The notes beneath the pieces are model-generated. The model did not search any database. It saw only the letters and a program-made list of their open reading frames with translations, and was not told the origin of the DNA. The position numbers and the translations under genes were made by a program. From positions 47,240,966-47,304,965 of the forward strand of contig OW804094.1 in NCBI GenBank assembly GCA_942159475.1: a stretch of DNA of 64,000 nucleotides. Reading direction: 5' to 3'. Source of the stretch: Sthenelais limicola. Taxonomy: Eukaryota; Annelida; Polychaeta; Phyllodocida; Sigalionidae. Every line of letters starts with the position of its first letter. Position 1 is the stretch's first letter. Shown piece by piece: positions 8,020 through 61,125 of this stretch.

Positions 8020-9950
8020 CCTTAAATAACGTTTTTAAGTGGACGCGGGATGCCACCAGCTGCAAATGAGTGTGACCCTTTTCCTCCGCGCGAGAAAGGA
8101 TGCTTATATATAAGTACCCTTCTATTGCACTGCCAGGAAAGTGTTTCAGTGAGCAGGCCTTATTAAATTTGGAAAAAGATAACAAATTCCAATAATAATA
8201 ATAAATGTTTTATATAGAATATATACTGTATTGACTCATAACATCGAAGTATTTTTGACAGCCCACTTGTAGCTTTACCCACCTGAGAACTATTGTAGAT
8301 CTTTCCTCGGGGAATACATATTCAGTCTAGGGCCAAACATGGGAGAGTCCCTTCAAACGAAGGGAAAGTCTCTCGCCTCAAACCACAAAGTGCCATTGTA
8401 ATTCCATTAAGACCGCAAAATGTCATTATATTCCCATTAAAACGCCGAGTCTTAGGCGAGGAGACCGATTAGCGAAGCAGGCTGACATACCATTCTTATC
8501 TGATCTGAGGGTTTGGACCTAGAGTGTATTGTTCATCAATAAAATCTGATTATAATTGTCCATATGTGTTATAGTTTATGGCAGGATAATTAAACAACGG
8601 TGACTTCTCTCTGATGTTGATGTGTGGAAGAAGGAATACCATTGGTCCCTGTTAATCAGTTAACATCTCCATAAAAGAAAACCAGCTGAGCCATGGCCTT
8701 GGCTCGCCTCTCTCGACCCAATTTGGGGGAAAGTTCCTCCTGTCTTGGCTTTAATCCTCTCCCGCCATATCACATAGCCGGCGTTTAATGACCCTTAAAT
8801 GACCAAAGCATCTAGCCTCCCCCTTTCCCTCTTCCCCCTCCCTGTTAAGAAATCCAGCGCCAAACTATATTGGACCGTCAAGGGGAATGTTCCAGACATA
8901 ATATTAAGTCATGACAGACGGAAAAAAGTATAGCGGAGGGCTTTACAATTTAAGCTAGTTTGGCCATATTTCTGGTACCAATATAATCTAAAGGTATCAT
9001 TATAATGATAGGCCCAGCTACCGGTATGTAGGCCTATACCCCAAATTATGATGCGATTCCTATTCGCTTTTTACCATGTATAAATTATATTATGGAACAT
9101 GAGAAAGATTATGTGTCCCCGTCGATCCGTGGGATTGTCAGGGTATTCTGGATGATTCTAATTCTAGCTAATAGATCCTTTGGACAAGTGTTGCTCCGGT
9201 TTGCTCCAATTTACCATCAAAATAGGTGCGGGAAAGGTCTCTGAGATCACAATATATTACATACGTTTTAACCGTACCTATTCCTATCAACATTTGTCTC
9301 CAAGGTCCGGAATTCAACAATTACCATATATTATGCTCGTCGGTGATTTATTTCTATTATTTCTATTTTACCTCAAGGTTAGACCTTTACAGTATCGTTG
9401 ATTGGTAGATAACATCGTTGATTGGTAGATAACATGTGAATAGTAAGATGGGAGCATTAAAAACCATGATAAACGTGCGGTACATAGTAATTTTTTGTGT
9501 TTGACTCGAAGTTCAACGAGGATCTCATTGCATGATATATCTCATCACTATTTAAAGAAGACATGAATTAGGAGGATTTGAGGAAAGAGGGGCAGAGGGA
9601 AATTTTCCTCGGTTAGCAACCTGAGACCCGTAATGTATTCCTGTATTGAGACGAGGAAAATTCGTATTATTGTCAAAGGTTTATGGACGAATATGATAAA
9701 TATAATATGCCTAGAATTTAAATGATTTTAAATTCTGACTCATTACGTCGTTATTTAGGCAGGCACTTGCTATAAAATTGATGGTCCCTCACATTGGCTG
9801 CATGTTGCTATACCTCCGCAGGAAAAGACCCATGATTCTATAAATATTCATACTTAATTAGGCCTCTCAATTTCACGCTCTAGCAAACTGTTATCACGCT
9901 ATTAGTCTTGTTCTATTTGCAATGCATGTTAAGTTGCAAACATTTCTCTT
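8020..9950. other. intergenic, no supported gene
   Basis: Low-complexity, AT-rich with a pyrimidine-rich patch near 8820-8850. A 20-bp unit (CGTTGATTGGTAGATAACAT) is tandemly duplicated at 9398-9437. Short open frames around 9180-9408 lack domain or splice support. Confidence 0.5.
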
Positions 9951-9956
9951 AAAATA

Positions 9957-11790
9957 ATGCTAAATTGTTATACGGTATTATGCCGCATCATGCATTTACC
10001 CTCTTGGCTGCTGAAGAAAGTCTTAATTACACTAGCAAAACAGTTGGTTGAAATAATTAACTTAACATACACACAAAGCTTGATTCCACAAGAATGGAAA
10101 CGTTCCAAGGTAACTCCCCTCTACAAGGCTGGCCCCATGACAAACCCAAGCAATTATAGACCGGTCTCCTCTATTCCCTTGCCAGCAAAATTATTAGAGA
10201 AATCCATGCATAAACAAGTCATGTATTATTTAGAGAACAACAACTTGCTATTCAATGGTCAGTACGGTTTCAGACAGGGTCGGTCAACGAAAGATGCTTT
10301 AATAAGTTATATTATGGAAATATATTCCAATATGAACGAAAACAAAGTATCCAGGGCAGCCTACCTCAACTTCAGAAAAGCTTTCGACACAGTAAATCAT
10401 TCGAGACTCATAGATAAACTAGAAATTATTGGCATAAGAAACAAAGAATTAGATTGGTTCAAAAATTATTTATCACATCGTTTTCAATCAGTGGAAGTAA
10501 ATAAAACAAAATCGAAACTAAACCCAATAACCTGTGGAGTGCCACAAGGCACAACATTAGGCCCACTTTTATTCACTGTATATATAAACGACATGCCAAA
10601 ATTCATACATAATTCAAAAATTCAATTATTTGCTGACGACACCATAATATATGCAACGGGCACTGACGTCCTAGAAGCTACAAACCTGCTTCAACAGGAT
10701 TTAAGTGCCCTAATATTCTGGTGTAAAAGAAACAAAATATCAATTAACTATGAAAAATAAAAAATTCAAACATTTTTCGGAAAGCAAAGTATGAGGTCGA
10801 GGTGGGCTGAAGGTGAACAACCCCAAATAAGTGAAAACATTTTGAAACTGGATGGTAATCCCATGGAAGAAGTAGAGATCTATAAATATTTAGGAGTAGA
10901 AATTGAGCGGAGTCTAAAATTTAAAACATCAGTAAATAAGCTGATAAATACCATGAACTATAAATGTTGGCAAATAACTAAACTTAAAGGGAAAATTCCA
11001 CAAGATACATTATTACTCATATATAAAGTTATGGTATTGCCCTTGATCGATCAAACAGATATTTTTCATGATTCCCACACAACAACAGGGACAAACCGAC
11101 TCCAGATAATCCAAAATAAGATACTTCGGAGAATCTATGGACTTCCATCCAGAGCAAATGTTGACGATTTACATGTAAAAAAGAACCTACTGACTTTAAG
11201 ACATAGAAGAAGACTTCATGTTTTGCAGGCAGGCCATGCTCTGGCGAGTAACCCAAGATATATTGATATAAGAAATTTAAATACCAGAAATTTTGCTACA
11301 GGCAGAAAGCCACTAAAACAAATTCTACCTAAAAACGAACAATTACAGAAATCAATTCTCCACAGAATTCCTTTCACTTGGAATTCTCTCCAGACCATGG
11401 CCCATGGGATACAGGACCCAAAATCATTTAAGACATTAGCAAAGAAAACCCTGATATGGTCAGACCAATATTTCATAGAATAACGCAATGATCATCCATT
11501 GACTTAAACATTTTCTTACGCCTTATTCCTATATATATTACAGATTTGAGGAAATCTTTATATAAGTTCTAGTGCGCCTTTACCAAAATATAAATACTGT
11601 AAAAGACATACAATAATGATATTAACAGTGGGCTCCTTTCGTCAATGACGACTGGAGTATTGTTCACTGTTAAGAAGAAAATGTAAAACAACAGGAAGCG
11701 TGCGATCCTCCCTTAAGCTGGAGATATGCCTCCTGAAAGCGACAAGTCGGAAATAAATGTATCTTAATCTTAAATCTTACGGTACATAAT
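9957..11790 (+). pseudogene. Jockey/CR1-superfamily LINE reverse transcriptase, 5'-truncated and dead
   Basis: One frame runs from 9957 to the TAA at 11481-11483, broken by one TAA at 10758-10760. Visible in order: IPQEWKRSKVTPLYKAG, NYRPVSSIPLPAKLLEK, QYGFRQGRSTKDAL (RT motifs 0-2), NFRKAFDTVNH (motif A), CGVPQGTTLGPLLF (motif B), LFADDTIIY (motif C), YLGVEI (thumb side) and the C-terminal linker. Motif A should start with the catalytic Asp of (L)DFRKAFD but reads NF, so the polymerase is inactivated in addition to the stop. No endonuclease part is present. The 3' region ends at ATCTTAATCTTAAATCTTA near 11760-11780, like the short repeat tails of CR1/Jockey elements. Exact clade (CR1, Daphne, L2) is uncertain. 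Confidence 0.88.
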
Positions 11791-25383: not shown

Positions 25384-25647
25384 AGGGCTCCTGAGGGGGT
25401 ATCTAATTTCTCTTGTCGCTACCAAAAGACAGCAATTGTCATTTGTCACTAAGAAAATTCTTTTGTCGTTTGTCGCTATATTTTCGTAAACAGCCAGACA
25501 AAATTTTTGTCACTAAGGACTATTAAGGTCTTTGTTGATTTGCCAGGCTAATAAAGTGTCTTTGTCGTTTGTCACTAGCTGCCTTTGAAAGTTGTCGATC
25601 TAAGAAAAGGCCATGTCAATTTGTTGAATTAAGGCCTCAAGAGCACT
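25384..25647 (+). mobile_element. MITE copy A (AGGGCTCCTGAGGGG family)
   Basis: 264 bp, beginning AGGGCTCCTGAGGGGG and ending GGCCTCAAGAGCACT. It is flanked by an exact 6-bp target-site duplication TATGTT (25378-25383 and 25648-25653). The interior is rich in TTGTCGTTTGTCACT-like phrases and non-coding. It is the most diverged of the three copies. Confidence 0.85.
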
Positions 25648-47585: not shown

Positions 47586-48746
47586 ATGGGCAGCCCTAAA
47601 AAGGCTAAGGAGACGAAAGGCTTGGAAGGCCCTGCAAAGCTTGCTTCCAACGCCATCATCCAGCTGTTCTTGGACAGACGGCAGGGCGCACAGGTCTTGA
47701 GTTTTTTAAGCTCATAAAGGACTTACAAGATGTGGGTGCACCTGTGGACAAAGGTTTACGTATGGCAGGCAGCCAGTCAGCTTGCGGAGGCTGTGATGGC
47801 ACTACTCCCGCAACCCTGTGTGTTGCTCATGAAAATCTAAATTTTAATTCAACTTCCAGGTAAGTCTCTAAAAATTCCAAAAGATAAGACTCGCCTGAAA
47901 TCAGCAATTAAGAATGGCAAAAGGGAGGAATGCCTTGACAAAGGTGGAGCAACGATCAAAAAAACATGACTGTCAACAGAGGCGGTGACAAGAACAGTGA
48001 GAGACGTACGGTTGGGAGAGTCTGAAAACCTGTTGGACCAGCACCATGCATCCAGCACATGCTGGACAGCTGGGAGCCACCCTTAAAAGGAGTACCAAGG
48101 GTTTGGGGCTCAAAAGTAGAGAGCAAGGTCCCCATTACACCAGATCTGCTCCATGTGATCAAAGCTCATTTAACCCCAGGAGACAAGAGGGATGTAGCGA
48201 TCTGGGCAGCATGCTTCTTAAGGAAGTGTGTTCTATGATGTGCAGCTGTCAAATGTGACACCCATAATGACAAGTGATGTGAAAGTTATACTCAGTGTCA
48301 TTGTCATTGTGTGGCCAAAAACAAACCAGTACAAAAATAACGATTATGAGGTGACTTTACCTAGGATAAGAAGTCATGACCTCTGCCCTGTGAGGGCTGT
48401 GTTCGCCATGCTCAGGTCTCTACCTGACATGCCCCCTGATACACCAGCACTGGCCTACATGAAGGGTGACCGTGAGAATTTGTGGAGCAGGTAAGGTTTA
48501 CCCTGAGAGGCAAAGTGAGTGATCTAAGTTCTATCAGCTAGCTGTCACAGTTTCCGTCGTGGGTTGGCCACCTGGGCCCACAAATGTGGCATTGATCCTG
48601 ACTCAATACGTCTACTGGGTAATTGGAAAACCGAGTGTTACAGAAAAAACTTGACGAACAGCGACCGACCCGCCCTCTTGAGGGCGGAAAGCCCCTCTTG
48701 GAACTCCCTTCTGTCGCCCCATCAATCAGTGTCAACTCCCCACTAA
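47586..48746 (+). mobile_element. decayed tyrosine-recombinase element (DIRS/Crypton-type)
   Basis: Frames switch several times, but the fold is readable. LKGVPRVWGSKVESKVPITP and DLLHVIKAHLTPGDKRDVAI (48083 on) is the recombinase core start. FLRK follows, then VWPKTNQYKNNDYEVTLPRI and LCPVRAVFAML (48228-48494), then CHSFRRGLATWAHKCGIDPD and LLGNWKTECYRKNL (48543-48660). The catalytic set R (FLRK), HxxR (HSFR), W (GNW) and Y (ECY) is visible. A short upstream ORF (47586: MGSPKKAKETKGLEGPAKLA) may be its leader or gag-like part. Frameshifts and stops near 48236, 48494 and 48500-48540 make it inactive. No reverse transcriptase was found, so Crypton versus degraded DIRS cannot be decided. Confidence 0.75.
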
Positions 48747-50024: not shown

Positions 50025-50287
50025 AGGGCTCCTGAGGGGGGTGTCTATTTTTTCTTGTCGCTACCAAGAAACAGCAATTGTCACTTGTCACTAAGACAAT
50101 TCTTTTGTCGTTTGTCACTTAATTTCCGAAAAAATGGCCCGTTTTTTGTCGGTAAGGACTAATAAGGTCTTTGTCGATTTGTCAGGCTAAGAAAGTGTTT
50201 TTGTCGTTTGTCACTTGATGCCCATGTCGATTGTCGATCCTAAGAATAGGCCTTGTCGATTTGTCGAATTTACCCCTCAAGAGCCCT
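50025..50287 (+). mobile_element. MITE copy B (AGGGCTCCTGAGGGG family)
   Basis: 263 bp with terminal inverted repeats AGGGCTCCTGAGGGG / CCCCTCAAGAGCCCT and an exact 6-bp TSD CTATTC (50019-50024, 50288-50293). The interior is repeats of TTGTCG(T/A)TTGTCA type, non-coding. Confidence 0.9.
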
Positions 50288-50475: not shown

Positions 50476-50742
50476 AGGGCTCTTGAGGGGTAAATTCAAC
50501 AAATCGACATGGCCTATTCTTATGATCGACAATCGACATGGGCATCAAGTGACAAACGACAAAAATACTTTCTTAGCCTGACAATTAAATCAACAAAGAC
50601 CTTATTAGTCCTTACCGACAAAAAACGGGTCATTTTTACGGAAATTAAGTGACAAATGACAAAAGAATTGTCTTAATGACAAGTGACAATTGTTGTTTCT
50701 TGGTAGCGACAAGAAAAATTAGACACCCCCCTCAGGAGCCCT
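50476..50742 (-). mobile_element. MITE copy C, inverted relative to B
   Basis: 267 bp, about 90% alike to copy B in reverse orientation. Ends AGGGCTCTTGAGGGG and CCCCTCAGGAGCCCT, with an exact 6-bp TSD TCCTTT (50470-50475, 50743-50748). Separated from copy B by 188 bp. Separate TSDs show independent insertions rather than one inverted duplication. Confidence 0.9.
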
Positions 50743-51902
50743 TCCTTTCGCAAGCTTGACAGTTTTTCATTACCAACGCCAATTACTAACGCCAATATGT
50801 TATGTGAATAACTCAAGTCGGCAGTTTACTGTCTACGGACAGTACAAGGATGCTTACCTAGATCCCCATATCACGACATCAAAGGAGAAGCGTTAAGCGT
50901 TGGTTCCTCAAACTGAGTTGGAGGTCCTGCCTGAAACTGTGGCAGAGTACCACAAGGACCTCAACAAACCAAAGATTTTCCTCACAAAACATCTGTTCAT
51001 GAGGCATGTCTGCAAGGTACACACCCCTCTAACACCAACATACAGGTGGCCCATTGCCCTGTGCAAGATCCAGATTTAATCCGACATGTGGGTCACTCCA
51101 ATTACAGTTTGAAGAGGAGAGACGCCACAACGAAGGTCTGCCTTCACTTTCGTGATAGGCCTATGGAATGTACCATACAGTATGGCTACAAGGGCACTTT
51201 ACACTTGGCCACCGTGGTTCACGAGTCGATCAAAGAACATGTGAAGAATGAGAAGTGGGAATCTAAAGTCCAAGACTTCCAAGAAACATGCTAGCGAAAC
51301 CTCATCTTCTAATGCTAAACGACCATGGAAAGAGTCAAAGGGGAAGGCAGAAGAGGCTGAGAAAGCCAAATTTATCCCAGTCCTGCCACCAAAGACGAAC
51401 ACATGGAACAGGTTTTCACCAAGCCAGTTGGAACACAAGTTCCCCAACCTTTTTTTTTTTTTCCCCAACGCCGGGTGTTTATTCAGCCTTTCAACAAATC
51501 TTAGCTTCGGGGCCGATAACACTTATTTTTACATCAAGCCCACTTCGTCTCTGCTTCTGTATCGCACGTAAGGATTTAAGAAACCACCGACCTGAAATTG
51601 TCTGTGGTACTAATTATTATATTTTCCACCTTATTTCTAACATGTTGCGTGGAATTCATAGCACCCATGGATGTATTCACATGTTTTGACTAGATCGTGA
51701 GTTATGTCATTGACTAGCACCTCGTATATTATTTCTAACATAACATTGTATTACATCGTTGAACATTTGTTGTGGAATAAAATATGACATGTGTGTTAAG
51801 TTTTCTTCGTTTATCGATCAACCACGACTAGTTTTAAGAGAGACTACTATGTGTGAAATTTGAATACCTCTGTCACACATCTACCTCTAATTTTTTAACG
51901 AC

Positions 51903-54900
51903 TTACAGTTCGTTATAAAACTTCTCCCATCTTGCCCACTCTCTCTTGTGGGTGGAGTTTGTGAAGGAGCCGTCGTACATAATTCTCAACTTAAACTTCA
52001 GCTCTCTGAGAAACTCAAAAAAGCATAACCGATTCTTTTTAAAGATTTTACACTTGTAAATATAGAATCTGGCCAAGAGTAATACGAAATTCCATGTACA
52101 GTATTTCTCCTCTATGTTGGGAACTCCAAATAACATAAAAATAACATTCATATCGTCTGTGATTTCACTGTCTAAATGATTGTTCCTTTTGGCCCAGTTT
52201 ATCAAATGGTGCCAAAATGAGCAAGCATTCTCACAATCTATAAAAAAGTGAAACAAGTTATCCACAGAATCGCAATAGCTACATAGGTTATTTGGCTTGA
52301 GATCCATATCACTCAAATGTACGTTACAAATGATCAATCTGTTTAGCACCTGATATTGAAATGACTGTAGACGCACATTTCTAGTGCAATTGAACGGTAG
52401 ACAGTACCAAATCGAGAACTCAATATTTGATATATCTATGTTCTTATCTAAAAACATGTTTGCCCACTCGACATTCCTGTCTCCCTTTGGGTTAATGAAC
52501 ACTCTGACGGCGTGATAAATATCGCATGTAGCTGCAGAGAGAATATCAACGTCTACTGTACCTATCTGACAGATTAGTTCCTCTCTATAATTTTGCACTT
52601 CTTCTTCAGCAATTGTCTTGAGCCACCTTGCTGGTATTTTCTTACTCAAACTAAGTTCTTCTAAGTAGTTGATGGTAATGCCAAACTTGCATTTTATTTC
52701 GTTCTTATTTTTTACTCTATTATTTGTGACTAGATCCTCTATCTTGTGAATCTCTTTTTTTTTTCACAAGTGAACTCTGCACAGGGCGTCCTCAAGCTTT
52801 ATCCATCTGTTGTTCCAGATACATTCACATAGGATGCTTTTCTTATTTTTTTTTTTTTATTAAGAGTATTTGTCAATCGATACAGGAACAAGTACATGTA
52901 TAAGTAAACATAACAAAGTCAATATACATAAGATATCACCTGTATACAAGAGGTAGGAAATAGCCTCAGTCCTAGTGAAACTAGGTCTGGTATGATTGGC
53001 CATTACCTGATGGTAAAACATAACTATAACTTGTAGCATACACATGGAAAAAAAATAGGGCTATCTAGGTGGGTATTACGTGGCTCTTGCGAGCTATAAA
53101 ATCGATTCCAAGTTTTAAAGATTTCTGTATAGAATTCTGAGAAGTCACCACTAATTTGGTTTCTAAATCGCATTAATTTTTTGAGATCATACCCTACATT
53201 TTCTCGAACAAGAGCAGACCATTTAGCATGCGGGTCCACCAACATTCTCTGAGCCCATTTTATCCTACATGTGATTAGCTTAGATCTAACGTCGTGTAGT
53301 TTGAGACCGCCTTCATCAATTTTTCTACACAAATAGTGCCAGGCAACTCTGTGCTTCCCTTTTCTCCAAATAAAGTCGGCTACCATTTTTTGTATCTTAC
53401 ATATCATGTGCTCTTCAATGACGATCAGGTTTGCGACATACATAAATAAAGGGATAATTAAGACATTAGCAATAACTACTCTGCCTTTTATAGATTTATC
53501 TCTCTTACTCCAGTGGTTGACAACCACGCAAGCCTTTTCAAAGGCGGTTTCAAAATTAATATTATTCTGTTGTTGCTTGTCATACGGATAGAGTAAATGA
53601 ATACCGAGAATTTTCATAGAATTGACCCAGTCTATGTTCTGAGACACTTCTGGAAGAGTACCATTTCGCCTATATTGAAGCCTTTGGTTTTACCGGTATT
53701 GAGTACTAGGCCGGATACATTACTAAATTCACTGATTATAGCCATCATTTGCAACTATCGTCATGTCGTCCGCGAATTGTATTATTTTGTTATGGACACC
53801 ACCAAATATTACACCTTGACATTCTGAATCGGTTCTTATCATCTCGGCTAGTCTCTCGACAACAATAATGAAGAGCAAGGATGCTATAGGGTCACCTTGC
53901 TTAACCCCTCGCCCAATACTAAACCATTCAGATATGTGACCGTTATTTACAATACACGATCTGGACCCTATCATGAGTCTTTTGATCCAATTCAAGAAAA
54001 ATTGCCTATGTTTATATCCTTTAGACATTTAAATAAGAATTCCCAGGAGATCGAGATCTATATACCTGCCCTTAATAAAACCGTACTGATCCTCGTTGAT
54101 CGCTTTGTCAATACACCCTTTTAGCCTGTTGCTAAGAGACTTAGATATTATTTTGTAGTCTGTGTTTAACAGTGTGATTGGTCTCTAGCTACCAATGAGT
54201 TTTAAATTACAGTCCTTTTTAGGGATTAGGGAGATAACACCTCTGTACATTTCATGCGATAGGCTATTACTCAGGTCACATTCTCTTAGTACCTCGTCGA
54301 ATATTGGTTCTAATACGCTCCATAAACACTTGTAGAATTCTACAGGTATACCGTCTGGTCCAGGAGCTTTGTTGCTCGCGAATGAGTCAAGTGATTTCTT
54401 GATCTCATTTTTATCAAAACCTCTGTTAAGTATCTCATTATCCATTGAATCAAAGGTAAAACCATCGTGTTCGGCCAAGAAGGAGTTATGTTCAGGTGCG
54501 GTCATTTCTTTTTCATGATATAAATTTTGATAGAATTCTTTCTTTTTCTTTAGAATTTCGCTAGATTCGGTGATATCAACACTGTCGACTTCTAACTGGG
54601 AAATTACTTTTTTCTTGAAATTTCTTTTTTCTAAATTTAAAAAGTAGGCTGTGGGTTTCTCACCCTCCACTAGCCATTGTGCTCTGCTACAAGCCATCGC
54701 ACCCTGAGCTTTTATAATCTGTTCTAGACGCAACTCGTCTTGTAAATTCTCTATCTCTTGACTTTCGGTCTGGTTTAATACACCCTTTTGGAATAATACT
54801 CTTATTCGTTCTCTGTACTCTTTTTCGACCTTTCTCTTCTCTCTATTTTTCTGTTTTGTATAACTGATGGTTTCGACTCGAATTATATGTAATCCCATTT

Positions 54901-55776
54901 GGCTTTAATACATCCTAAGCCTTCCATTTCATATGCTTCAATTATTTTTTCTTTCATCATAGATACATACTCCTCGTTATTCAGTAAATATTTATTAAAC
55001 TTCCACATACCAGGGCCTCTGGCCTGTTCATTAGATTTAATAGAGAAAGAAACTAACGAGTGATCTGAATGCTCACACAAAACATTATCGAGACACTTAA
55101 CCTCAGGTCTGAGCGTGGAATCAATCATACAATAATCCAATCTAGATTTTTGAGAGAGGGAGTTTCTCCCCCAAGTGTTTATATTTGCCGTACGCGGCAG
55201 CATCTCTTTAATAATATCACATAATTCGAAATCATGCACTATTTTTATCATATCTCTCAGCCCTACATGTCTTGCATGCTGGCTGTCACTCAAGTTTAGA
55301 AATTCTTCTTCTGGCATTATATCCAGATTAAAGTCACCCATGACAATTAATGATCTTTCTATTTTACCATTCATTATTCTCCTTAGAGAGGTACACATTT
55401 CAGCTTGCTCCTTATAAGCATCTTTTGTTGGAAAATACACTGAGAATATTGACAGTTCTTTTTGTTCTAACGTTAGATCCACAAATGCGATTCTACCTAG
55501 ATCGTCACCCCCTTTATGCTTAATTTCTACATTCAGATCTTTAGATATTAAGATGGCAACTCCTCTTGCATTTCTTTTGCCGTGGACAAAATGGGCATTA
55601 CCCTGCTATTGATTTCTCCATATTTTGATATCACTATTTACCCTGTGTGTTTCTTGTAGTGCGAATATGGCTCTTTTCTTCTTATTCAAAAATCTAAATA
55701 ATGCCTTTCTTTTTTTCAGACCTGCTAATCCATTTACATTTAAGGTGTAGAAGTTTATATTATTCTCTTCAATCAT
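51903..55776 (-). pseudogene. LINE ORF2: AP endonuclease, reverse transcriptase, Cys/His C-terminus
   Basis: Start ATG 55776. Endonuclease motifs: NVNGL, LQETH, MGDFNLDI, NTWGRNSLSQKSRLDY, SDHSLV. One TAG lies at 55608-55606, and the frame shifts near 54890. [54 protein letters not shown], then directly ISWEFLFK. The roughly 40 residues with catalytic motif A (DFxKAFDS) are deleted at about 54050. Motif B GRGVKQGDPIASLLF and motif C IQFADDMTIV follow. More frameshifts lie near 54000 and 53720. The C-terminal region LQSFQYQVLNRLI and LCSYCDSVDNLFHFFIDC ends at the stop by 51903. Clade L1/Tx1 by RPITLLN..YK. Dead copy. Confidence 0.88.
52846..53045 (-). mobile_element. 200-bp poly(A)-tailed insertion inside LINE ORF2
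   Basis: On the minus strand the ORF2 frame leaves after HLDSPIFF and resumes at SILCECIWNNRWIKLEDAL near 52838. The DNA between ends ACTCTTAATAAAAAAAAAAA, i.e. a poly(A)-tailed, non-coding, SINE-like insert or a truncated LINE 3' end. No A/B box is evident and I could not fix a TSD. It post-dates the host LINE. Confidence 0.55.
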
Positions 55777-56008
55777 TTTGGATTTTGGGGACGCAGCTCA
55801 CCCTCCAAGATTTCTGTCTTATAATTATATCAGAGTACTTACAATATATTTTCGCATCATATAAGTTAGCAGTACATGTTAAGTGTATATCATCAACTCT
55901 TATTTTCATAACTTCTGTGTTGACGGGTGTATTACAGACACTTGTTTTAGCGTCGACCCGTTTTACAATTGTTATAGAATACATTTTGTTATGATAATTT
56001 TTAAACAA
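55769..56008 (-). CDS. small ORF (79 aa) between NADAR and ORF2
   Basis: Begins ATG at 56008, 31 nt after the NADAR-frame stop, and its TGA (55771-55769) overlaps the ORF2 start ATG (55776-55774). The peptide (MYSITIVKRVDAKTS, VMKIRVDDIHLTCTANLYDA, WRVSCVPKIQND) looks beta-rich with four cysteines but matches no family I know. The 8-nt overlap suits termination-reinitiation used by some LINEs to express ORF2. It could also be the degraded end of a longer ORF1. Confidence 0.4.
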   Translation of the reverse strand: MFKNYHNKMYSITIVKRVDAKTSVCNTPVNTEVMKIRVDDIHLTCTANLYDAKIYCKYSDIIIRQKSWRVSCVPKIQND

Positions 56009-56039
56009 TGATCACCACTAATACACAAACTATTCCTGT

Positions 56040-56564
56040 CTATGATCTGCTTGCAGCAACCTCCATCTTGTCGCTCTCATCATCATCTCCATCTTCCGCT
56101 TTCTCTTCTGCTGCCTTGGCTACAAGTCTCTCCCTGACCCTCATCCCAGAGAGGCCCAAGAGATTTCCCTTCTTGTTCCATTTCTCTTGCACCAGTACGT
56201 CGGGGTTGTATAGTCCCATTCCTATACCCCATTTGGAGATGTTAGGGGATGCCTCCCCTATGGTCTTGTCTCCTGTTGCCAGCAGGTAATTAGCAACCGA
56301 CTCGTTGTATTAGACTTTTCTTTTCAAGCCTCTCATTAGAGTAGATTCGAGGTTGTCATCCCATTGGTCCCATACCTCATCGGACACGTAGGAGTCCAGA
56401 GCAACTTTGCATCGTACTGGGTCTTCCAGCGTCAGTATGAAGTCAGCTTTCTGCATATCTTGATCCATTACAGCCTTAGAAAGAGCAAGGTATTGCTCAA
56501 TGCAAAAAAACCATCTTTTGTCTACCTTGAATTTCGCTTCATAATGATTTAACAGGGGGCGCAC
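56040..56564 (-). pseudogene. NADAR (YbiA/COG3236-like) domain carried by the LINE
   Basis: 175 in-frame codons with one TAA at 56310-56312. The first half reads RPLLNHYEAKFKV, WFFCIEQYLALSKAVM, KADFILTLEDPVRCK, SDEVWDQWDDNL, TLMRGLKRK. After the stop come NYLLATGDKTIGEASP, KWGIGMGLYNPDV, KWNKKGNLLGLSGMRVRERL. This is the NADAR order: E in the xEQY helix, K of the following helix, W-D..., LLxTGDxxIxEAS, WGIG, and NxLGxxxMxVRxxL, all present. Domain length (about 155 residues) is normal. It ends with an acidic tail (EEKAEDGDDDESDK). Known NADARs act on ADP-ribose or nucleoside glycosidic bonds; some reverse guanine ADP-ribosylation. The frame joins ORF1 after FVFFTRE by a one-step frameshift, so the ancestral ORF1 was probably an ORF1p-NADAR fusion. 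Confidence 0.85.
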
Positions 56565-57457
56565 TCCCTAGTGAAGAACACAAACGTATATTCGTCTTCT
56601 TTTTTGGCGAGGAATCCAGGTGTGAACTGCTTTGGGAGCATTTCTAATTGATCATGCTTATAACGTCTCTGACCTAGTATAACATCGCCATATGCGTTAA
56701 CGACAACAGGGTATCTTTGCGACGCTCTTGCTGCCGCGACGCACTGCCTTGCTCTGGTAATCCTCTTTCTTACCTTGTCTGGTAGATCTTTCCTTAGCCA
56801 GTATAGTCTCTTGGTGTTTTCATTGACCTTTTTACCAAGATTGTCCCTCTTACCCCACACGTCCTTCATATCTGTCACATTCTCAAACACGATCAAGACA
56901 GGTGCTGCCTTACCTCTTCCAAGCCTCATAGTCGTGTACTGTACTGCTTTAGAAACTCCCATGTGTTCCTCCAGTACCACTGCAACCGTATTTCCAAGGA
57001 TTTGATCATCCTCGTTGTCCTCCTTTTTAACTCCATCCAAGATTAGGTTCAGCTCCTTATCTTTTATCTGTTGCCTTAGCTGTTCCTCCTCATCCCCGAT
57101 CATGGCCATGTATATGGCAACGAGTTTCGGGTCGTTCTTTTTCACCATGTTAATCCTGATGAGCTCCATTTCCTCGCGTTGCTTCTTCAATTCTTCCTCT
57201 ATAATGTCTGCTCTCTTATCTCTATGAAAGTTCTCACCTTCCATTACACCGAGTGCGGTTTTGATTTCGCCTACGTCCTTTTTAGTGTCAGATGCGGCGT
57301 CACTTATTTGAGTTTTTAACGCATCAAACATTGTTTTGATTTCATCATTAGTTATGGACGACATCTTGCTTACTTGCTTTTTACTAGGCTGGTTGTTCAC
57401 GCCCTCCTCCATCCTTTTTCTCTTTACTGAGTCCGTATCTTTTGTCACACTCATCAA
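56549..57457 (-). CDS. LINE ORF1: coiled coil and RRM-like nucleic-acid-binding protein
   Basis: 302 codons from ATG at 57457. Residues 1-35 are basic (KRKRMEEGVNNQPSKKQ). Residues about 40-150 are heptad-rich and charged (EEELKKQREEMELIR; GDEEEQLRQQIKDKEL), a coiled coil likely to drive oligomerisation. An RRM-like fold follows (LNLILDGVKKEDN; VQYTTMRLGRGKAAPVLIVF), then a C-terminal nucleic-acid-binding region (RLYWLRKDLPDKVRKRITRA; VVVNAYGDVILGQRRY) as in L1 ORF1p/Transposase_22. The last residues, KKEDEYTFVFFTRE, already look like the first strand of the NADAR domain that continues in another frame. The stop after ECAPC is therefore probably a frameshift product rather than the original terminus. 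Inferred role: RNA packaging into the retrotransposition RNP. Confidence 0.8.
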   Translation of the reverse strand: MMSVTKDTDSVKRKRMEEGVNNQPSKKQVSKMSSITNDEIKTMFDALKTQISDAASDTKKDVGEIKTALGVMEGENFHRDKRADIIEEELKKQREEMELIRINMVKKNDPKLVAIYMAMIGDEEEQLRQQIKDKELNLILDGVKKEDNEDDQILGNTVAVVLEEHMGVSKAVQYTTMRLGRGKAAPVLIVFENVTDMKDVWGKRDNLGKKVNENTKRLYWLRKDLPDKVRKRITRARQCVAAARASQRYPVVVNAYGDVILGQRRYKHDQLEMLPKQFTPGFLAKKEDEYTFVFFTRECAPC

Positions 57458-58040: not shown

Positions 58041-58167
58041 AATTTTTCCACGATTGTCTGGACTATCTTCCCTGTGTTTTGTTCTACGTACTCTCTGTAT
58101 CTTCACTGAACCTTAGTGCATTTCTGCATTCTATCGGTTGGGTTTGGCTGAAATAAAAGGGGACAAC

Positions 58168-61125
58168 AAGACCGATAGCAAGGGGAAGGCTAAATATGCT
58201 GGACAAGAAAAAAAGATTAACCATAGAAGAAAGAAACAAGCGAACAGAGCTATTAGAAGAAATAAGGGAAATAGAACTTAAGAAGGCAGAGGGTTCCCTA
58301 ATAAGGTCAAGGGCTAAATGGGTCAAAGACGGGGAGAAACCAACTAAGTACTTCTGCGGTCTAGAGAAATATAGAGCGGAAAAAAAATCTATCACGCTGC
58401 TTAACATTAACGGGAATCTTTCCTCAGATCCCAAGCAAATTTTGAAAGAAGGGGGGGATTTCTATATGGGTCTGTACAATGAATGAGATACAGATAGCAA
58501 TGCAGCTAAAGAGTTCTTAGATAGTTCACTCTTAACTCAGTTTGATGAGGGAGATAGTGGTTTCCTCTGTGATCAGATCACAGAGGATGAGGTGGAAAAA
58601 AATCTGAAAACAATGAAGAAAAACAAGTCACCGGGGTGTGACGGATTTACCGTAGACTTTTACCAGAAGTTTTGGTATGTGCTTAGGGGGAAATTCATGG
58701 ATATGTTGTACGAATGCCTGGATAGTGGGGAAATGACCGAGAACCAAAAAAGGGGAGTAATTAGTGTAATCCCGAAAAAGGGTACCGACCCAGCCTTTAT
58801 TAAAAACTACAGGCCGATAACACTACTCAACGTAGACTATAAAATGATCTCAAAAACCCTAGCAGTACGTCTAAATAATGTTCTCCCAAGCGTGATCAAA
58901 GATGATCAGTTTGGCTTCCTTAAAGGAAGATACATAGGGACGGCAATCAGAAAAGTCGACGATATCATTTCATATTTAGAGGAGAATAATCAAAATGGAA
59001 TTATTGCATCACTAGATTTTGTTAAAGCATACAACTCAATTAGCTGGTCATTTTTAGAAAGCTCCCTTCTTGCAGACGGAATGGACCCCAGATTCATTAA
59101 CTGGATCATGGCCCTATTTAGAGATTCAAAAGCAACCTTCTGCAATAATGGCAACACCTCTGGCTGGTTTCAGATAAAAAGGGGAGTTAAGCAGGGGGAC
59201 CCCATATCATCTTCCCTCTTCCTGCTGGTTGTGGAAAAATTAGCTGAGCAGATAAGATACAACCAAAACATAAAAGGTATAACCCTGGGTAATAACGAAG
59301 CAAAGTTAATCCAATTTGCGGACGATATAACGGTCACCTGTGAGGACGAATTCTCCCTTCTAAATACTATCAGGCTGATCGATAGATTCGGCTCAGCCTC
59401 GGGCCTTAAGCTGAATCCGTCCAAATCCAACGGGCTCTTGATAGGAACAGTCTCGCTCACAAACAGAGAACTTCTCCAGATTAATTGGGGGGACCAAATG
59501 AAAACCCTGGGGGTTACCCTGCTTTATCCAAGGGACGAAGCTAAACTGGTTAGAATAAACACCGAAAGGCTAATAGAAAAAGTAAAAAAAACGCTTAACG
59601 AATGGAACAACCGCTTTTTAACACTCAAGGGAAGAATCATAGTGTCCAATACCTTCTTGCTGCCAATATTTTTGCATACCTTGTCATGTATCTACCTAGA
59701 CCAAAATGTTGTAAAACAAGTAAATGACATTATTCTCAAATTTGTGTGGAAAAACGGCTCTAACAGAGTCAGTGCAGACTTCCTGACCCAATGTATCGAG
59801 AAAGGTGGTATGGGATTAAGGTTACTAGGTGAAGTCTGCGAAACCAATAGGATTAAATGGATAGAAAGAATCCTGTACTCAGGAAGAAATAATTGGTTCG
59901 ATGTCCTAGAAGCGGTCCACGGAAGACCCAAAGAAGAAATATTTTTGGCGAGATTCAAACCAAGTTACCATTTAAATGTATTTTATCAAAAATTGTTCAA
60001 AACTTGGAACGAGTGTTATTGCAAAAATTCTCCCTCAACGGTAAACCAGATTAGGAAAGAGAGATTGTGGACAAACAAAAGCATCAAATACAAAGGTAAC
60101 CCGACAAGGTGGCAGCACTGGATCGATCGTTCTATGAGATCAAAGCGATTAAAAAAGGTATCCCAAATGAGTGGAAATGTAAACTGAAACTAGAAGAACC
60201 GAGGTTGTGTGACGGATCTATAGATTTCAAGATAGGGGAGAAGGAGTTGAAATTAAGAGACTGCCCCTCCAAAGTAATATACCAATTGTTGATAGAAAAA
60301 AGAAAGCCAAAGTGGGAAAAATTCCAAAAATGGAAAAGTTTGCTTAATCTAAGCGACGATCAGTTTGAGGAAATTGTCTGGAAAAATGTATTTACCATCC
60401 CCTATAGATGCTCCACAGAGACTCGTTTACAGGTTTTACAATACAAAATTTTACATGGTGCAATTACAACTAATAAATGATTGAAGGAAATTGATGTGAG
60501 GGACAACCCATGTTGTAACCAGTGTCCTGAGGTCGATACGCTGAGCCACTTCTTCGTCAATTGTATCAAAACAAAAAGAATCTGGATATCGATCCTGGAA
60601 TGGATATACGAGCTTGAGTACATTAATGTCAAAACAAACGGTGAAAAAATAATAAACAAGAGAGGTAATAGGGCGATCCTTTCAGCTAGGGAAATACTGT
60701 TTGGAATAGAACAAATAAATGCTCAATCCAAGATAGTGAACTGGAGTATTCTCCAGATCAAGGCATATATTCATAGACAATGGTGTAATGAGTATGTTAA
60801 TGATTATGTATGAATTGAAAGCAAGAGCCACCCTAGTAATAATCAATATTGGATATGCTGAGAGGAAAAAAGAAGAGCGAAAAATATGGCAACGCTTCCT
60901 TGATGACATAATAGAATGTATTGAGAAGCTTAAGGAGTAAAACATGTATCGCCCTACAGCTACCATATATGAATGCGCAAATGCGCCCTGATAACACTGA
61001 TCTTAAAATTACCTGTGTTTTTTTCCAAAAATCTCGAACCTGATTATCCTAGATGTAATACCATGAAATCGATCACTTGTACTGAATAAAACGATGTCGC
61101 AAAAACAAAAAAAAAAAAGACCGAT
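58168..61125 (+). mobile_element. 5'-truncated L1/Tx1-type LINE with poly(A) and 9-bp TSD
   Basis: Flanked by AAGACCGAT at 58168-58176 and 61117-61125. The second copy directly follows the A-rich tail (61101-61118). The body starts inside ORF2, after the endonuclease, and ends in the poly(A). The 5' truncation, poly(A) and TSD are hallmarks of target-primed reverse transcription. The TSD overlaps the A-tail, so its exact length is ambiguous by a few bases. Confidence 0.88.
58177..60940 (+). pseudogene. LINE ORF2 reverse transcriptase and C-terminal domain
   Basis: In order: KWVKDGEKPTKYFCGLEK (58317 on), KNKSPGCDGFTVDFYQKFW, VISVIPKKG, NYRPITLLNVDYKMISKTLA, DDQFGFLKGRYIGTAIRKV, ASLDFVKAYNSISWSFL (motif A; catalytic Asp present, the usual AFD is AYN), KRGVKQGDPISSSLF, IQFADDITV, ILKFVWKNGSNRV, STETRLQVLQYKILHGAI and CNQCPEVDTLSHFFVNC. 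Breaks: TGA at 58484-58486, a frameshift about 60110-60180, TGA at 60478-60480, and a frameshift near 60810, after which LKARATLVIINIGYAERKKE runs to TAA at 60938-60940. The long uninterrupted RT frame (58487-60187) shows it is fairly young. It belongs to the same clade as the minus-strand LINE but a different family. Confidence 0.92.

Follow-up and report, generated by a model that had tools for sequence, protein, structure and literature searches.

The locus described here raises the question of whether a NADAR domain can be a proper part of a LINE and, if so, what a retrotransposon might do with it. It lies in a stretch of 64,000 nucleotides from the polychaete Sthenelais limicola (contig OW804094.1; hereafter the window), for which an earlier note, made from the letters alone, had described a NADAR domain carried as cargo by a LINE, fused to ORF1 and separated from it by a single frame slip. 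Our analysis confirms that this observation is real and that it was understated. The features of the element are collected in Table 1.

Table 1. Features of the NADAR-bearing LINE copy, with positions in the window
Feature	Position	Strand	Observations
ORF1 frame, 305 codons	56549..57466 (stop included)	-	first ATG 57454; open frame; 131 scored genome places match, itself included
ORF1/NADAR frame overlap, 19 nt	56549..56567	-	single frame of relatives lost in window copy
NADAR domain and acidic tail	56040..56567	-	frame next to that of ORF1; PF08719, TIGR02464, fold of 8BAU/2B3W
In-frame stop within NADAR domain	56310-56312	-	single one
Stretch between ORF1-NADAR and ORF2	55798..56039	-	GC 0.31; one 80-codon open frame
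ORF2 endonuclease part	54883..55797	-	PF03372 2.3e-7, PF14529 2.5e-6; stop at 55606 ends first piece
ORF2 reverse transcriptase part, several broken pieces	53024..54904	-	RVT_1 2.9e-9; L1 ORF2p 3e-12
ORF2 C-terminal part	51903..52763	-	weak zf-RVT PF13966, E 5e-4, 21 bits, below cut-off 27.5
Run of 13 A	51450..51462	-	possible 3' end of element

The NADAR domain and the LINE copy that carries it

Profile and fold confirm that the domain which directly follows ORF1 on the same strand belongs to the NADAR superfamily (PF08719) and to its YbiA subfamily. Joined across its stop codon, which was read as X, the domain scores 66 bits against PF08719 (E 6e-18; curated cut-off 35.1), and its two in-frame pieces taken separately score 20 and 34.6 bits, each below that cut-off. 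The top NCBIfam match is TIGR02464, 'riboflavin biosynthesis intermediates N-glycosidase', at 72.5 bits and thus just under its cut-off of 73.7. The AlphaFold2 model of the domain, for which the stop was read as Q and an alignment of 57 rows was used (pLDDT 89.7), has two matches in the PDB at E <= 0.001, 8BAU (TM 0.69) and 2B3W (TM 0.65). Its residue E105, in the last strand, is the equivalent of the catalytic glutamate E125 of 8BAU and is neither D nor H, and S59, L73 and I110 stand where 8BAU has its ADP-ribose contacts R79, R93 and D130, which are not required for NADAR membership.

A protein-database search with the window NADAR alone gave no match, and one with the whole ORF1-NADAR fusion gave a single match, a NADAR protein without ORF1. 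A two-row NADAR profile matched 376 proteins; among the 120 of these that were listed few are named, the one named animal being Patella vulgata. Four of the matches listed (P0012, P0013, P0015 and P0033) combine NADAR with PF13532, a 2OG-Fe(II) oxygenase domain that we take to be AlkB-like, in one chain. A scan of viral contigs found no relative, and in a tree built with 62 profile-matched proteins the window NADAR sat on a branch of 3.9 changes per column and so had no placement.

ORF1 is laid out as a coiled-coil-like helix followed by an RRM/CTD-like part and ends where NADAR starts. The label 'L1-type' given to it in the earlier note is plausible by this layout, coiled coil, RRM and CTD being what we presume for an L1-type ORF1p; as to a direct match, searches of Pfam and the PDB with the window ORF1 yielded nothing useful and no L1 ORF1 profile or structure, and an AlphaFold2 model made without an alignment, of low quality (pLDDT 40), shows a long helix followed by a mixed part. 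The last ORF1 residues had further been said to fit the first NADAR strand. The window copy taken alone gives a weak signal for this, as the tail adds 3.8 bits, a value equalled or beaten by 4 of 287 other ORF1 14-mers and by 64 of 500 shuffles, but relatives that read ORF1 and NADAR in one frame decide the matter in its favour. The NADAR frame of the window copy starts directly after a stop and has its first methionine not before residue 34, so that no start codon lies ahead of the active-site residues E24 and K31, and as it stands the frame would hardly be a gene of its own. Third-position GC is similar in ORF1 (0.49) and NADAR (0.52) and lower in ORF2 (endonuclease 0.33, reverse transcriptase 0.37, C-terminal piece 0.44).

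NADAR indeed lies ahead of ORF2 on the same strand, with the PF03372 endonuclease downstream of it together with a reverse transcriptase (RT) piece whose five PDB matches are all L1 ORF2p or named RNA-directed DNA polymerases (50 bits to L1 ORF2p). Both pieces of the endonuclease part have relatives in the genomic locus L029. With an APE-type endonuclease and an RT nearest to L1 in its ORF2, the element is classed, as far as sequence can tell, as a LINE of the L1/Tx1 type. A search for a target-site duplication around it gave no convincing match. A second L1-like LINE, which lacks its 5' part, lies head to head with the NADAR LINE (58157-60940, plus strand); its RT is related to that of the NADAR LINE and scores 200 bits to human L1 ORF2p versus 89 to R2. 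The window further holds another LINE RT at 9933-11483 (plus strand; RVT_1 2e-31), frames without a Pfam match at 48001-48746 (plus strand) that we take by motif to resemble a tyrosine recombinase, and a repeat at 50025-50287, 50476-50742 and 25384-25647, the inverted copies of which are 94% alike and the third copy about 82%.

Relatives in the same genome and a second group of LINEs

The genome searched measures 1.13 Gb, and the contigs encountered include nine of 68 to 162 Mb. A search with the ORF1 part only gave matches at all 131 scored places (2356 first-look candidates), and frames of at least 430 aa, that is ORF1 with room for NADAR, are present at 112 of them. Besides the window, seven near-full-length places are 93-97% identical to the window ORF1, and five of these (L030-L034) read ORF1 and NADAR without a break in an open frame of 474 aa. 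The frame slip that the earlier note had invoked to explain a split ORF1p-NADAR protein is therefore peculiar to the window copy, and the single frame of the intact relatives identifies slip and stop as decay of that copy within a family that is still live. Twenty of the ORF1-found places, picked by hand over the identity range and mostly with long frames, were fetched, and all 20 have NADAR in the frame of ORF1. The NADAR match spans at least 138 residues in 19 of them, the frame of the remaining one (L036) being broken inside the domain, and the ends of two others (L035, L041) are altered. NADAR is thus carried by this LINE as a part of its own, as had been claimed. One locus, L025, holds an unbroken first-group ORF1-NADAR of 489 aa; 43 bases downstream of it begins an L1-like ORF2 of 1248 aa (L029) that is likewise unbroken.

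Intact relatives without NADAR, which would have spoken for a chance insertion, were sought by a search blind to NADAR. It used the RT of the second window LINE, for which 77 places were scored of 13101 candidates; 12 were picked by hand for long ORF2 frames, and 2.2 kb upstream of ORF2 were fetched. In ten of the 12 the upstream stretch holds ORF1 and NADAR as a single frame of 222 to 602 aa. The other two, L051 and L052, whose RTs share 99% and 98% identity with the RT of the second window LINE, show neither ORF1 nor NADAR in these 2.2 kb; each has a 154-aa frame upstream, and that of L051 looks by eye like the end of another LINE. The sample chosen by ORF1 thus bears NADAR throughout, and the two places found by RT suggest that not every L1-like family in the genome need carry it.

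A genome search with Pfam NADAR put all 150 scored places over the cut-off (5561 first-look candidates), and matches were also present in three of 14 control genomes. The profile used for scoring loci was built from the window domain together with the listed database proteins shorter than 200 aa; in all six ORFs submitted to Pfam (L009, L015, L016, L026, the first-group ORF of L025 and the plus-strand ORF of L018) NADAR was confirmed, and the PF08719 scores of the relatives range from 78.6 to 119.1 bits. The top-scoring places mostly belong to a second, non-L1-like group of LINEs. At 19 of 20 loci picked by hand from the 150, a LINE ORF2 frame (E <= 1e-10, up to 1002 aa) lies downstream on the same strand. 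Both second-group ORF2s submitted to Pfam (L009, L010) contain an RT, and their endonuclease is over the cut-off in L009 and just under it in L010. The RTs of this group are 21-27% identical to the window L1-like RT where they can be aligned at all, and the RT tree separates them from it (100/100), with the window RT at 9933-11483 on their side; as a PDB match of the L009 RT, L1 (50 bits) does not outscore R2 (58 bits). Judged by eye, second-group ORF1s consist of a coil, an RRM/CTD-like part, NADAR and a long low-complexity tail, and the RRM/CTD parts of the two groups match each other (hhalign probability 97.9, E 3e-13, 143 columns, 11% identity).

Other NADAR frames were met on the way. The twentieth locus, L025, is centred on a stand-alone NADAR of 162 aa (L025:5495-5980, minus strand), and NADAR occurs in 162-aa frames at two more places on contig C1. 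A 572-aa frame in L018 (6944-8532) and in L050 (plus strand) joins NADAR, with the catalytic glutamate changed to histidine, to a weak GDSL esterase match and overlaps another frame, which combines RT with GIY-YIG in the manner of Penelope-like elements. This is one case, and perhaps one of NADAR in a third class of retroelement.

Selection, active site and history of the LINE NADARs

Selection on the fusion was estimated by the method of Nei and Gojobori from 19 first-group copies, leaving out L036. The median dN/dS is 0.13 for NADAR (13 of 171 pairs in the usable dS range), 0.07 for RRM and CTD (14 of 171), 0.10 for the N-terminal part (13 of 171) and 0.58 for the tail (15 of 171), values that come from few usable pairs which are not independent. 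In six of seven listed pairs between subfamilies the dS of NADAR is saturated at a dN of 0.13-0.30, and the seventh pair has a dN of 0.07 and a dS of 1.05. Measured on the sequences in this way, the NADAR of the first-group LINEs is under purifying selection.

The active site was compared in 50 readable LINE ORF1 NADARs, 31 of the first and 19 of the second group, near-copies among them and L036 cut off, with positions mapped on 8BAU (numbering offset 2). E43, K75, W89, E125 and W133 are identical in all 50, and position 50 is K or R in all 50; the NADAR-GDSL protein, counted apart from these, has H at E125. Two of the 50 have R at position 79, the residue that contacts the pyrophosphate in 8BAU. 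R93 is retained in 13 of 31 first-group and one of 19 second-group domains, and D130 in three of 31 and 18 of 19, respectively. Given the replacements at R79 and R93 and, in the first group, at D130, the ligand or the affinity may differ from that of 8BAU. In the E. coli C7 NADAR, efficient removal of ADP-ribose from guanine depends on the equivalents of K50 and E125, a K-to-R exchange at the K50 equivalent keeps activity in vitro, and at the E43 equivalent a Q mutant is inactive and an A mutant only mildly affected (PMC11543638; cited, like the other papers below, from the accessible part of its text). Guanosine RNA lost its ADP-ribose with all NADARs tested, the only tested family to act in this way (PMC11833690).

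How the two groups came by the domain was approached with a NADAR tree of 63 rows, without L012, L032, L033 and L036, which are near-copies or cut off. First-group NADARs form one clade (100/99), and those of the second group fall into a cluster (87/92) that also takes in one NADAR-GDSL protein and the stand-alone NADAR. The test does not reject a common clade for all LINE NADARs (p-AU 0.43), and when all LINE NADARs and the stand-alone NADAR were held together (p-AU 0.62) the tree was better than the free one. Within the second group three main clades are common to the NADAR and the RT tree, from the latter of which L012, L013 and L023 were left out: one of L009, L011, L015 and L028, one of L010, L020, L021, L024, L026 and L027, and one of L014, L016, L017, L018, L019 and L022. 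This agreement suggests that NADAR has long travelled with its RT in that group. The whole may go back to several captures or to a single one, after which the ORF1 module would have moved.

Possible roles and comparison with known systems

The family of the window element and many of its sister families keep the ORF1-NADAR fusion, which evolves under purifying selection and retains its catalytic core residues. What follows from this for its function is predicted, both as to activity and as to substrate. The reading that we favour, with moderate confidence, is that the window element derives by decay from a LINE in which ORF1 encodes a protein with an RNA-binding part (coiled coil, RRM/CTD-like) and with NADAR at its C terminus, and that this protein acts as an active hydrolase, tethered in the RNP, which reverses a host mark or lesion. 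The enzyme would be active as part of the ORF1 protein, which would tether it to the element RNA in the LINE RNP. There it would hydrolyse adducts of ADP-ribose, or related N-ribosyl adducts, that guanine carries in element RNA, in nascent cDNA or in target DNA, and would so undo a host mark or lesion that might otherwise block reverse transcription or integration. More tentatively, and with less confidence than we place in the reading just given, the RRM-CTD-NADAR cassette common to the L1-like and the non-L1-like group may be seen as a retrotransposon anti-ADP-ribosylation device, a predicted guanine ADP-ribosylhydrolase that selection would keep because hosts use ADP-ribosylation to mark or damage retroelement RNA, cDNA or target DNA.

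The chief rival, which we regard as rather unlikely, is that NADAR is a non-catalytic module that binds RNA, a cap, NAD-like RNA ends or free ADP-ribose derivatives and so helps ORF1p to package RNA or holds host factors. It would agree with the position of NADAR next to a presumed RNA-binding part and with the replacement of R79 in 48 of the 50 domains and of D130 in 28 of the 31 of the first group. It has a precedent, too, in the nematode NADAR protein SNA-3, which works with an RNP and in whose NADAR domain 1 key residues are not conserved (PMC9303266). However, the six core positions E43, K/R50, K75, W89, E125 and W133 are kept over deeply split families, which is more than a scaffold needs. 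Less probable still, in our estimate, is an enzyme directed at small molecules, such as soluble ADP-ribose derivatives or intermediates of the riboflavin pathway, rather than at nucleic acid. TIGR02464 as the best NCBIfam match would fit such an enzyme, and soluble ADP-ribose derivatives have been proposed as targets of phage NADARs (PMC9503650), but the score of that family model falls short of its cut-off and the fusion to ORF1p points to a target within the RNP.

Two further explanations concern the junction. Programmed ribosomal frameshifting between ORF1 and NADAR in the window family, suggested by the overlap of the two frames at a run of C, is very improbable and is ruled out by the close relatives (93-97%) that read through in one unbroken frame of 474 aa. 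That NADAR is a chance insertion or host gene fragment beside a LINE, with a meaningless junction, could be read from the split frames and the stop of the window copy alone, but it has next to no probability and is ruled out by intact relatives, given NADAR in ORF1 of 20 of 20 and 10 of 12 fetched relatives and purifying selection.

Returning to the tethered hydrolase that we favour, a selected ADP-ribosylhydrolase core kept in the ORF1 protein of a selfish element, in many families and two groups of LINEs within one genome, suggests that retroelement nucleic acid is under some pressure in this animal. The roles of NADAR across eukaryotes, animals included, have been called unclear (PMC11125620), and as unbroken genomic copies exist, the enzyme is open to direct expression and testing.

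The statement of the earlier note that it knew of no described LINE of this kind has to be corrected, since several Tx1 LINE families of the oyster Crassostrea gigas have been reported to carry NADAR in ORF1 (PMC12477816). These families resemble the window LINE in having a NADAR of the YbiA family within ORF1; in the accessible text the case takes up one sentence, without anatomy, selection or active site. The same paper reports NADAR in the Pol of Gypsy elements of the brown alga Ectocarpus and suggests processing of RNA intermediates as a role. Like the LINEs described here, the brown-algal Gypsy elements keep a retrotransposon-borne NADAR in several families; they differ in being LTR elements with the domain in Pol and with NADAR blastp matches that are almost exclusively bacterial (PMC12477816). 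A literature search found no further report joining NADAR and retrotransposons; the accessible text of one mollusc LINE paper (PMC11203168) has no word beginning with NAD or YbiA, and that of another (PMC10294476) does not contain YbiA.

Nidoviruses, hepe-like viruses and picornaviruses of annelids and bivalves are likewise RNA-based replicators from invertebrates that have acquired NADARs; different from the LINE domain, these lie in viral polyproteins without fusion to an ORF1p (PMC9503650). Among single proteins, LOC126817334 of Patella vulgata (P0008) contains two NADAR domains and part of a third, the first being 30% identical to that of the window, but has no ORF1 part and no match to ORF1 beyond chance. 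With the NADAR of Phytophthora nicotianae in complex with ADP-ribose (8BAU) and with E. coli YbiA (2B3W) the window domain shares the fold and E43, K50, K75, W89, E125 and W133 of 8BAU; it differs in overall identity (29% and 22%, respectively) and in the replaced R79, R93 and D130, and neither of the two proteins has an ORF1 part. The novelty of our observations is partial, as the oyster Tx1 ORF1-NADAR was already reported (PMC12477816). What seems to be new is the second group of LINEs, the extent of the phenomenon in one genome, the evidence from selection and active site, and the ORF1 module that the two groups share.
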